Assembly: GCA_028876065.1 (NCBI GenBank)
Contig: JAGWTI010000020.1
Span: 1 to 42,714 of the forward strand
Direction of reading: 5' to 3'
Length of the DNA stretch: 42,714 nt
DNA from: Nitrospirota bacterium
GTDB lineage: Bacteria > Nitrospirota > Nitrospiria > Nitrospirales > Nitrospiraceae
Under the pieces are notes generated by a model, which worked only from the letters and a program-made list of their open reading frames with translations, did not search any database and was not told where the DNA came from. Shown one piece after another: positions 39,388 through 42,714 of this stretch. A program made the position numbers and the translations under genes. Each line of letters begins with the position of its first letter. The stretch's first letter is position 1.

Positions 39388-40491
39388 TCAGGCTGGCGAC
39401 ACCCAGGTCATCCCATGGGCTTCGGCCACGGCTTGGCACGTCACTCGCCCCTTGGCCACATTGATCCCGCGTGCAAAACCAGGATCCGCGCGCATGGCCG
39501 ACTCGAGTCCCGCCGAGGCCAGGCGAACTATAAAGGGAAGCGTCGCATTGGTCAAGGCCAAAGTCGAGGTCCGCGGCACGATGCCCGGCATGTTCGGCAC
39601 GCAGTAGTGTAACACGCCCTCCTCGCAATACACGGGATCGGAATGGCTGGTCGGGCGGGTCGTTTCCACGCACCCGCCTTGATCGACGGCGACATCCACG
39701 ATGACGGAGCCGGGACGCATGCGGGACACCACCGAGCGCGACACCAGCTTGGGCGCTTTGGCCCCCCGGACCATCACGGCGCCGACGACCAAGTCCGCCT
39801 CTTCCACCGCCGGATCGATCCAGGATTGCTGGGAGGCCAGCGTGACGATCCGCCCCTGGTACAGCGCATCCAGCTCCCGCAGCCGCTCCAGATCCTGGTT
39901 GATCACGGTGACCTGCGCCCCCATCCCCACGGCGATCCTGGTGGCGGCGCTCCCGACCACGCCGGCTCCCAGCACCACCACCTTCGCGGATGCCACGCCG
40001 GGCACACCGCCCAGCAACACGCCGGACCCGCCTTGCAGCCGCTCCAAATAGCCGGCGCCGACCTGCACGGCCAACCGGCCGGCGATCTCGCTCATGGGCT
40101 TGAGCATCGGCAGGCTCCCGTCCGGCGCCTCGGTCGTTTCATAGGCGATAGCCGTGACCTGCGCGTCCAACAAAGCTTTTGTCAACTCCGCCGAGGCGGC
40201 CAAATGCAGATAGGTAAAGAGGAGCTGCCCGGGACGGAACAGGGCATATTCGGGCGGCAAGGGCTCCTTCACTTTCACGATCAGCTCCGCCTCGTTGAAA
40301 AGCTGTTCCTTGGAGCCGGCCAGGCGGCCGCCCGCCTGGCGATACTGCTCATCGGAGAAGCCGCTCTCTTTCCCGGCCGCCGGCTCGACCCACACCATAT
40401 GGCCGGCGACGCACAGGGTCCTGACGCCTTCCGGAGTCAGGCTCACTCGAAACTCATGGTCTTTGATTTCCCGCGGCACACCGATGATCAT
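39388..40491 (-). CDS. ald: Alanine dehydrogenase
   Basis: 367 residues from the ATG at 40491, behind GGGAGGAG. Catalyses NAD-dependent interconversion of alanine and pyruvate plus ammonia. Residues equivalent to the active site of the Mycobacterium enzyme are present: Arg15 (HEFRVSL), Lys75 (VKVKEPLP), His96 (TYLHLA) and an Asp in [11 protein letters not shown]. The NAD-binding glycine motif is [17 protein letters not shown]. It has its own TATAAT -10, and tRNA-Pro follows. Confidence 0.96.
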
Positions 40492-40590: not shown

Positions 40591-40620
40591 TGGACAGGCT
40601 AGGAGCAGCTATAGTATGAT
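40591..40620 (+). promoter_or_regulatory. Promoter of the small metal-protein cluster
   Basis: TGGACA (40591-40596), an 18-base spacer, then TATGAT (40615-40620). Each hexamer matches five of six consensus positions. It is divergent from ald. Confidence 0.58.
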
Positions 40621-40647
40621 CCGCCCGTTTTCTCGGAGGATGCACAC

Positions 40648-41064
40648 GTGGCGGATGGGCAGACGGGCTTTTCGGCAGGACGATGCGACGCCTGCGGGTC
40701 CCAGCAAGGCCCCTTGCAGAAACTGTCCCTGGGCAAAGACTTTTTTGGCCGCGCCTACGACCGCCTCTCTCCGTCCTCCGATCAAAGTCCGAAGTGGTAC
40801 TGCGATTCCTGTTCGATGCACAAAAACCTTCAACGAGACTTCCGCGATATCCGCGCCGAGTTCGACAAGCTGAGCCAGGGACAGCCTTCGGAGCTCGCCG
40901 GCGCGGAGCTCTTTCAGCGCGCGCAGTTGCGCCTGAGAGAGATCGCCGCCATTTTATCCGGACAGGCGGCGGGGTCGCGTTTGCTCGATCCCGCGGATGT
41001 CACCGCCTTGGTCGAACGCGTGCAGGCCCGTGCGGGCGCGTCGCCTGCGAGCGGGCTACGGTAG
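40648..41064 (+). CDS. Small protein with two CxxC motifs (zinc-ribbon-like)
   Basis: 138 residues; GTG start with GGAGGA eight bases upstream. Cys13-x2-Cys16 and Cys52-x2-Cys55 suggest a single structural zinc site. The C-terminal half is helical (EFDKLSQGQPSELAGAELFQ, then AQLRLREIAAIL). I do not recognise a family. It is the first of four closely spaced genes. Confidence 0.72.
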   Translation: MADGQTGFSAGRCDACGSQQGPLQKLSLGKDFFGRAYDRLSPSSDQSPKWYCDSCSMHKNLQRDFRDIRAEFDKLSQGQPSELAGAELFQRAQLRLREIAAILSGQAAGSRLLDPADVTALVERVQARAGASPASGLR

Positions 41065-41076
41065 CCGCGCCGCCCT

Positions 41077-41427
41077 GTGCCACCGTTCAAACACCATATT
41101 TTCGTCTGCATCAACCAACGCCCCAAAGGCGACCCCCGCGGCTGCTGCGCGGACAGCGGATCGGAGAAACTGCACGCCTTCTTCAAGAAGGAAGTGGACC
41201 GCCTCGGCCTGAAGGGCACCGTCCGGGCGAACAAAGCCGGCTGCCTGGACCATTGTGAATATGGCCCCAGCGTCGTGATCTATCCGGAAGGCGTCTGGTA
41301 CTGGGTCGGATCGGAAGCCGATGTGACCGAGATCATGGAACGTCATGTAGGCAAAGGCGAGATCGTGGAGCGCCTGTTGATGCCGGGCCACCCCGCGCCG
41401 AAAAAATTAAGCCCTCCGAAATCGTAG
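41077..41427 (+). CDS. Thioredoxin-like [2Fe-2S] ferredoxin
   Basis: 116 residues; GTG start with no clear ribosome site, 12 bases after the previous gene. The order Cys11, Cys23 or Cys24, Cys56, Cys60 (FVCINQRP, RGCCADSG, AGCLDHCEYGP) matches the thioredoxin-fold [2Fe-2S] ferredoxin family (C-x11/12-C and C-x3-C), with GPSVVIYPEGVWYWVGSEAD following. A cytoplasmic electron carrier whose partner is not known. Confidence 0.9.
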   Translation: MPPFKHHIFVCINQRPKGDPRGCCADSGSEKLHAFFKKEVDRLGLKGTVRANKAGCLDHCEYGPSVVIYPEGVWYWVGSEADVTEIMERHVGKGEIVERLLMPGHPAPKKLSPPKS

Positions 41428-41454
41428 TGCGATTCGTTCCGGATGGAGGTCGGC

Positions 41455-41865
41455 ATGGCGGAGGAAAAATGGAAGGCCAACATGGAGAAAGTCGCCTTCA
41501 TGAAGCAGTTTCCTGGCCTGGCCTGGTCCTGGGAGCAGATGCAGGGGAAAACCATCGAAGCCGTCTCGCTCCTGCCTTCGAAGCCAGGGGCGGCGACGCT
41601 GGTCTGCACCGACGGCTCCTTCGTGGTGGCGCCGCCCCTCGACCCGCAGCCTCACGAACTCGGCGAGAGCCTGCGCGCCGCGCGTCCCGCGCTGGAATCC
41701 AAACATCCGGACGCCTATCGGGAATACGATCGGCTGGTCAAGAAGGACCGGGACGCGTTGAAGGCAGCCAGGCTGGAAAAAATCGTCGGCGCCATTCAGA
41801 ACAACCTGGAACAAATTCCAGAACTCAAAGACCGGTTACGCAAGCTCGTCAACGAATGGAAATGA
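41455..41865 (+). CDS. Small protein of unknown function in the ferredoxin cluster
   Basis: 136 residues from the ATG at 41455, which has GGAGG six bases upstream; an in-frame ATG at 41443 is less likely. An N-terminal alpha/beta part (TIEAVSLLPSKPGAATLVCT, DGSFVVAPPL) is followed by long charged helices (REYDRLVKKDRDALKAARLE). It carries only a single Cys and no cofactor motif. Its position between two iron-sulfur proteins is the only clue to function. Confidence 0.74.
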   Translation: MAEEKWKANMEKVAFMKQFPGLAWSWEQMQGKTIEAVSLLPSKPGAATLVCTDGSFVVAPPLDPQPHELGESLRAARPALESKHPDAYREYDRLVKKDRDALKAARLEKIVGAIQNNLEQIPELKDRLRKLVNEWK

Positions 41866-41878
41866 GGATCGCCCGGCC

Positions 41879-42157
41879 ATGAACATGCTGGAGCTGTTCT
41901 CCAAAGCCCTGTTTGAAGGAGTCTCTCCCATGATGGTCATCCGCGATCACCTTGTCCGCCATCCCGACCGTTGTACGCACCAAGCCATCTGCATGCCGGT
42001 CTGCCCGACCGGCGCCTGGCTTTCCACCCCGCCGTTCAAATTCGACTCGTCCCGCTGTCTGGAAGGCTGCCGCCTTTGCCTGGACGCCTGCCCCTCGCAG
42101 GCCATCTACGCGGTCTTCCGCAAAGGCGAGAAGATCCTGATTCCGCAGAAGAAGTAA
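41879..42157 (+). CDS. Ferredoxin with seven-cysteine double-cluster pattern
   Basis: 92 residues, ATG 13 bases after the previous gene. Cys32, Cys38 and Cys42 (followed by Pro) and Cys60, Cys64, Cys67, Cys71 (followed by Pro) form the two halves of a bacterial dicluster ferredoxin. In the first half the second Cys position (residue 35) is Gln, and in the second half the first spacing is x3 instead of x2. The protein could therefore hold a [3Fe-4S] plus a [4Fe-4S] cluster, or one cluster only. Confidence 0.85.
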   Translation: MNMLELFSKALFEGVSPMMVIRDHLVRHPDRCTHQAICMPVCPTGAWLSTPPFKFDSSRCLEGCRLCLDACPSQAIYAVFRKGEKILIPQKK

Positions 42158-42177
42158 GGCTGGACCGGTCGGCGAAC

Positions 42178-42198
42178 GGCGCACGGATTCAGTGCGCC
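42178..42198. terminator. Hairpin after the ferredoxin gene
   Basis: A perfect 7-bp stem GGCGCAC/GTGCGCC with a 7-base loop, 20 bases past the ferredoxin stop. No T-tract follows. The remaining bases up to 42375 hold no gene I can support and probably mark the junction between core chromosome and the restriction gene. Confidence 0.45.
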
Positions 42199-42375: not shown

Positions 42376-42714
42376 TCAAACAGCCAGGTCTAGAGGCAGG
42401 TCTGCTATATCCTTAAGCCGCTTCCCATCCACCATAATGCTCAACATTTCTTTCGCATCTTCCAGACCAAGCTCATTCACGGTCTCAGCCAGTTCCAGAA
42501 GAGCAAAATGGTAAACACAATCTATATTCCCCGTTCCGAGAGCGATTGATCCGATTCTGCTCGGCAACGGCTCCCCTGTTATCACGACTATATGGGGTGA
42601 ATGCCCCTTACGGTTGTTCATTAAGTTCAGAGCTTCTGATCGGGAGTTTTGTGCACGGTCGCTTCGAATGGTCCACTTACAAGAAATGCTGGCATGAAGT
42701 ATCGGCAAACCCCC
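42376..42714 (-). CDS. NgoMIV-type type II restriction endonuclease, C-terminal part
   Basis: The last 113 codons (112 residues) of a gene that runs off the right edge; the frame is still open at 42714. The sequence LHASISCKWTIRSDRAQNSR plus the following SEALN aligns with the NgoMIV active-site region. SCK gives the catalytic Ser and Lys, a Glu lies 14 residues after the Lys as in NgoMIV, and RSDR is the CCGG-recognition tetrad. It continues with PHIVVITGEPLPSRIGSIAL and GTGNIDCVYHFAL. The predicted target is GCCGGC or a related CCGG site. The region is visibly richer in A and T than the rest, which fits horizontal acquisition. A matching cytosine methyltransferase is expected outside the window. 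Confidence 0.85.
   Translation of the reverse strand, partial: GGLPILHASISCKWTIRSDRAQNSRSEALNLMNNRKGHSPHIVVITGEPLPSRIGSIALGTGNIDCVYHFALLELAETVNELGLEDAKEMLSIMVDGKRLKDIADLPLDLAV

Follow-up and report, generated by a model that had tools for sequence, protein, structure and literature searches.

Within the class examined, a ferredoxin gene, referred to in the following as gene D, occurs only in the nitrite-oxidizing lineage, and its product consistently lacks one cysteine ligand throughout the family. Gene D lies in a cluster of four small genes, A to D, in a stretch of 42,714 nucleotides (the window) that makes up one whole contig of a 3.4-Mb genome. The core of the cluster is B and D, set on an older C–B pair, and not a chain of four genes. 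We propose a module of B with a 7Fe-type D that was acquired once in the nitrite-oxidizing clade, a reading in which we place close to, but short of, even confidence.

The gene cluster and the products of A, B and C

The four reading frames of the preliminary description were recovered on the forward strand, with gaps of 12 bases between A and B, 27 between B and C and 13 between C and D, matching the 12–27 bases given there. An alternative in-frame ATG for gene C at 41443 would reduce the B–C gap to 15 bases. The single promoter said to precede the genes was also located: a sigma-70-like sequence, TGGACA-18-TATGAT, lies just upstream of gene A on the forward strand (40591-40620) and was assigned by consensus match only, at 10 of 12 positions. 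A motif search returned two such sites in 2 kb, against 0.6 expected, and the second points toward a divergent alanine dehydrogenase gene outside the operon (ald, 39388-40488, reverse strand; TIGR00518, 508 bits). An ald match was present in 41 of the 41 loci described below, not in all of them divergent or close. On the other side, an NgoMIV-type restriction endonuclease gene (42376-42714, reverse strand; Pfam NgoMIV_restric, E 1.1e-60) is truncated by the end of the contig, with only its C-terminal coding part present.

Gene A (40648-41064, forward strand) encodes a zinc-ribbon-like protein of 138 residues with four cysteines (CxxC...CxxC). Both CxxC pairs were retained in 88/88 distinct homologues, in agreement with its earlier description as a CxxC protein; the match to Zn_ribbon_8 was weak (E 0.12) and fell under the cut-off. 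Gene B (41077-41427, forward strand; 116 residues) had been described as a thioredoxin-like [2Fe-2S] ferredoxin, and residues 4–103 do align with the solved Aquifex [2Fe-2S] ferredoxin 1F37 (E 2.7e-23), a homology that gene B has in common with the thioredoxin-fold [2Fe-2S] ferredoxins of Aquifex, Clostridium and Azotobacter. It matched the fdxn_Clost profile at E 1.7e-24 (86 bits, cut-off 150), and its scores under the equivalog cut-offs (86.3 against 150 bits for NF041612 and 78.6 against 195 bits for NF041613) place it outside both named subfamilies, those of Clostridium and Azotobacter. The cysteine pattern C-x12-C ... C-x3-C was found in all 121 distinct B sequences. RGSC replaced RGCC in 44 of the 121 (for example at L042, L044-L048, L051-L052, L063 and L065), indicating that the first of the two adjacent cysteines is not required as a ligand. 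A paralogue of B with 46% identity is encoded elsewhere in the same genome (G000:C39:15490-15795), and most relatives have a similar copy at 38–47%.

Gene C (41455-41865, forward strand) encodes a conserved protein of 136 residues, and, as before, no confident known family was found for it. The match to Pfam Med26 was weak, scoring 20.9 bits against a gathering threshold of 20.6 over about 39 residues of the last helices only, and 28 of 56 members of the gene C family matched Med26 at E<=0.01. The structural model had a pLDDT of 93.7; Foldseek returned no PDB match at E<=0.001, and further structure comparison gave no Z above 3.6. On this model, the comparisons decide neither for a known fold nor for a new one, and the predicted structure is possibly a new small fold. 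The C-terminal helix is highly conserved, and the family is class-wide.

A ferredoxin with seven cysteines

Gene D (41879-42157, forward strand) encodes a protein of 92 residues that matches Fer4_7 (Pfam, E 2.6e-10), as expected from its earlier assignment as a dicluster-type ferredoxin. Its cysteines form the motifs C32-x5-C38-x3-C42-P and C60-x3-C64-x2-C67-x3-C71-P, and exactly seven cysteines, at positions 32, 38, 42, 60, 64, 67 and 71, were present in 105/105 distinct D sequences drawn from 144 loci; distinct sequences were counted because some loci represent one genome under two identifiers. All 105 thus have the sequence pattern of the 7Fe class, in which one of two Fer4 motifs is without a Cys ligand. 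From the usual ferredoxin fold, we take the two ligand sets to be C32/C38/C71 and C42/C60/C64/C67. An AlphaFold2 model of D made with 14 homologues reached a pLDDT of 48, too low for use. An alignment of 14 diverse D sequences had a mean column identity of 86%, and conservation extends over the full length of the protein, the 31 residues ahead of the first cysteine included, a pattern that one would expect if D had a fixed partner.

The preliminary description held that Gln35 replaces one cluster ligand. Position 35 is Gln in 64, Asn in 35, Lys in 4 and Ser in 2 of the 105 distinct sequences and Cys in none, which upholds the missing cysteine and rules out the sequencing error that the description had allowed for at this position. 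Gln itself varies across the homologues and is therefore not a conserved ligand, whereas the adjacent position 34 is His in 104 of 105 sequences and Asn in one (L154). Should the first site have a fourth ligand, His34 would be a better candidate for it than Gln35. If His34 completed a Cys3-His [4Fe-4S] cluster at the first site, D would be a modified 2[4Fe-4S] ferredoxin instead of a 7Fe protein; this alternative touches the cofactor only and is compatible with any of the functional readings discussed below. We regard it as possible, though on the unlikely side: His34 is kept next to a position that varies freely, but the single Asn at 34 and the many other non-ligand residues of D that are equally invariant weaken the argument.

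By analogy with the seven-Cys 7Fe ferredoxins, a [3Fe-4S]/[4Fe-4S] carrier would be the simplest reading of D, in line with one of the two options given earlier; the other, a single-cluster protein, is unlikely. The C-x5-C-x3-CP spacing of D recurs in NxrB of the same order (CRGYKKCVEQCP), and the matching site in NarH is one that we take to bind [3Fe-4S]; unlike these iron-sulfur subunits, D is a free-standing protein of 92 residues without the remainder of the subunit. The ferredoxin III type of Desulfovibrio africanus is, like D, a small, soluble protein with two cluster sites, one of them with three cysteines. Ferredoxin III also has seven cysteines, with Asp where the first motif would have its second Cys. 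The corresponding slot of D, whose cluster content is predicted only, holds Gln, Asn, Lys or Ser beside a conserved His; D further differs in its second motif, C-x3-C-x2-C, and in its conserved N-terminal stretch of 31 residues. The match of D to the FdxA/Azotobacter FdI type was weak (NF045490, E 2.7e-5; 1ff2, E 9.4e-5), and at 24.3 bits against a cut-off of 135 for NF045490 it is not an FdxA equivalog. It also lacks the long C-terminal extension of these proteins, and their first-motif spacing differs from that of D.

In PMC13111528, ferredoxin III is described as a 7Fe protein whose [3Fe-4S] cluster is reactive, an example of the behavior of such a site, and 7Fe signatures are reported to be commoner in aerobes (PMC7039249); a 7Fe-type cluster set in D would suit an aerobe. 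The rTCA ferredoxins of Aquifex and Hydrogenobacter resemble D in being small and in belonging to aerobic or microaerophilic rTCA autotrophs, but they are described as having one CX2CX2CXnCP cluster (PMC10052474), compared to the two sites of D.

Conservation of the genes and distribution of D

Among 61 relatives, D was detected in 49, and the loci of 41 of these 49 (the window and 40 other stretches) were compared; as they were picked for having D, the counts describe loci with D and do not speak for those without it. In 41/41 loci, gene B preceded D and shared its strand. By tblastn, the gene content was ABCD in 26, BCD in 10, ABD in 4 and BD in 1 locus; when a start codon was also demanded, the last two numbers became 3 and 2, with ABCD still in 26 and BCD in 10. 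The expectation that the genes are kept together was thus borne out for B and D throughout and for all four in 26/41 loci, but tblastn gave no gene A in 11 and no gene C in 5 of the 41. Median gaps over the 41 loci were 14 bases for A–B, 34.5 for B–C and 1 for C–D, with 4-base overlaps at C–D and, where C is missing, at B–D. Conservation is highest in D: leaving out the two outgroup loci, the lowest identity to the window was 74% for D, followed by B (60%), A (50%) and C (44%). In many loci, synteny reaches beyond the four genes. The suggestion that partner oxidoreductases might be found with the genes elsewhere led to none, as no such gene was seen within the operon in any examined locus.

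In both outgroup loci (L197 and L198), C and B are adjacent, and A and D are not there. In four genomes of one Nitrospirales family, f4, none of A, C and D lies near B, and in one f4 genome (L202) C sits elsewhere. Of the four-gene electron-transfer chain envisaged in the preliminary description, the conserved module remains; the set itself is not fixed, and the B–C pair, which occurs without A and D in 2/2 outgroup loci, is older than D. D is a later arrival, and the simplest history is the addition of D to an old C–B pair in the clade formed by families f1, f2 and f3.

At E<=1e-15, D was detected in 155 of 196 class genomes, all belonging to f1, f2 or f3: 155/159 genomes of these three families, to which nitrite oxidoreductase (NXR) is ascribed in the literature, 0/3 of f4, the sister family without NXR, and 0/34 of other orders. 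In the set of 61 relatives, D was likewise found in 0/4 genomes of f4. The four f1–f3 genomes that are without D (G013, G438, G040 and G043) are all without a B orthologue at E<=1e-35 as well, suggesting that the entire locus was lost or failed to assemble. B was present at E<=1e-35 in 181/196 class genomes, and C at E<=1e-8 in 170/196, f4 and other orders included. In a sample of the phylum, 354/395 genomes had some match to D at E<=0.001; outside f1–f3, the matches listed for D had E values of 6.6e-8 or weaker and lay mostly within larger frames. A contig scan for D gave at least 171 relatives, and all but two of the best 80 carry a Nitrospira-type name. The two others, L090 (labeled Acidobacteria) and L117 (labeled Nitrosospira), encode the ferredoxin of the Nitrospirales, with identities of 91% and 85%, and are probably mislabeled or misbinned. 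Plasmids gave no match.

The NxrB of the window's genome (G000:C2) is 96% identical to that of Ca. Nitrospira defluvii. From this close NxrB, and from a genome of the same genus named Nitrospira sp., the organism is most likely a nitrite oxidizer of the order Nitrospirales. As the NXR marker we used NxrB at E<=1e-100; TIGR03479 had been considered and was rejected as too unspecific, matching 61/61 relatives. NxrB was found in 21/37 genomes of f1, 5/8 of f2, 10/12 of f3 and 0/4 of f4. NXR is reported in Nitrospiraceae, UBA8639 and NS-4 and as absent from UBA2166 and the other orders of the class, and it is described as hard to assemble and bin (PMC12342949). The low match rates in f1–f3 are thus probably due to NXR contigs that are often broken or missing, and the absence of NxrB from f4 leads us to infer that f4 corresponds to UBA2166. 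At the level of single genomes, the agreement between D and NxrB is loose: among the 61 relatives, 33 had both, 16 D alone, 3 NxrB alone and 9 neither.

The best reading of this distribution is that D was acquired once, presumably in the ancestor of the nitrite-oxidizing Nitrospirales. Since a trait gained once represents one clade and one event, it establishes an association with nitrite oxidation and not a proof of function, and D may simply be a lineage marker. A set of 140 genes, many without known function, has been proposed as diagnostic of nitrite-oxidizing Nitrospirales (PMC12342949), and by the criteria stated in that source and the counts given here, D should be one of them. Our full-text literature searches returned no title or abstract describing the operon; D may well stand in published supplementary tables.

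Possible roles of D and its partners

In the proposed mechanism, the operon would encode a small cytoplasmic electron-transfer module, in which B would work as a thioredoxin-fold [2Fe-2S] ferredoxin together with D. The 7Fe-type D would carry an ordinary [4Fe-4S] cluster at Cys42, 60, 64 and 67, as judged from its motifs, and at its three-Cys site (Cys32, 38 and 71) either [3Fe-4S] or a [4Fe-4S] whose fourth ligand is not Cys and may be His34. The addition of D to the older C–B pair would have occurred a single time, in the ancestor of the nitrite oxidizers. The cluster types, the low potential, the direction of electron flow and the partner are all suppositions of the model. A nitrite-oxidizer-specific carrier of low-potential electrons, acting with B, is the best supported explanation, since it accounts for the constancy of the seven cysteines, the conservation of D, the fixed order and strand, the overlaps and the restriction of D to the NXR families while B is widespread. 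Against it, the operon includes no oxidoreductase gene, and another small dicluster ferredoxin was found in 12/12 Nitrospirales genomes checked and could do the general work. A more specific version, in which D and B would be the missing ferredoxin link that takes nitrite electrons to low potential, D being an oxygen-tolerant, nearly invariant 7Fe protein with a His-flanked three-Cys site that was acquired together with nitrite oxidation, is speculative and in our estimate doubtful.

D might instead be a dedicated CO2-fixation ferredoxin, reduced by a reverse-running 2M complex I and oxidized by the pyruvate- and 2-oxoglutarate:ferredoxin oxidoreductases of the rTCA cycle. In favor of this, Nitrospirales are reported to fix CO2 through the cycle (PMC12342949), with the identity of the ferredoxin at this step in Nitrospira left open in PMC6606698 and its reduction treated as a hypothesis in PMC3578206; small, low-potential, oxygen-stable ferredoxins are described in this role in Aquifex (PMC10052474), and in the NXR families D is almost always present and strongly conserved. 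Set against these points, f4 has 2M NuoM in 4/4 genomes but D in 0/4, the NXR-less UBA2166 is reported to keep the rTCA cycle (PMC12342949), and the other small dicluster ferredoxin is present in f4 too, to which 3 of the 12 genomes checked belong. D is therefore not present wherever the lineage has the cycle (0/4 in f4, taken as UBA2166), and the occurrence of 2M complex I and, as reported, the rTCA cycle without D weakens the idea of a dedicated rTCA ferredoxin to the point where we consider it unlikely. Presence and absence give no support to D as a partner restricted to 2M complex I, with 2M NuoM found in 59/61 relatives, including the 4/4 D-less genomes of f4. D as the sole small ferredoxin was rejected, as short frames with Fer4_7 matches of about 201 bases occurred in 12/12 Nitrospirales genomes checked. 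Single-cluster Fer4_13 matches above the cut-off occurred only in longer frames of 298–345 residues. The second dicluster ferredoxin, a long-loop protein of about 115 residues, is encoded at L202:1619-2017, L203:5777-6124 and L204:4859-5242, with corresponding matches in the 12/12 genomes checked, the NXR-less family included, and it would be a better candidate than D for a general rTCA ferredoxin.

The main rival besides the rTCA reading is a role in iron-sulfur maturation or repair, in which B, C and D would give electrons or clusters for the assembly of Fe-S enzymes, perhaps the NXR system. Beyond the nitrite oxidizers, C or B lies near putative Fe-S or sulfur-handling genes: at L202 (f4), C stands behind what we take to be Rrf2/IscR-, Nfu- and Mrp-like genes, and in the outgroup loci L197 and L198, C–B lies between a presumed rhodanese-like gene and presumed MtaB/MiaB-like genes. 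The loci are few, though, and the neighbor labels putative; B in f4 stands without A, C and D nearby, and the strict seven-Cys, two-site pattern of D suits electron transfer better than cluster donation, so that we judge this role to be quite unlikely. Least probable of all is a housekeeping cluster without a common function, with D as a clade-specific spare ferredoxin. That A and C can be absent beside B–D, and that synteny extends to the wider region in many loci, would agree with such a cluster; the gene order, the 4-base overlaps and the exceptional conservation of D would not.

Nitrite electrons are reported to enter at about +0.43 V (PMC9040806), and how nitrite oxidizers lift electrons to the potential of CO2 fixation is an open question: in PMC6606698 and PMC3578206, a complex I variant is proposed, and the accounts given there name no ferredoxin carrier demonstrated to work. 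The near-invariant D, found in the nitrite-oxidizing clade and absent from its relatives, offers a concrete and testable candidate carrier, and a good candidate for an uncharacterized electron carrier of the nitrite-oxidizing lifestyle.
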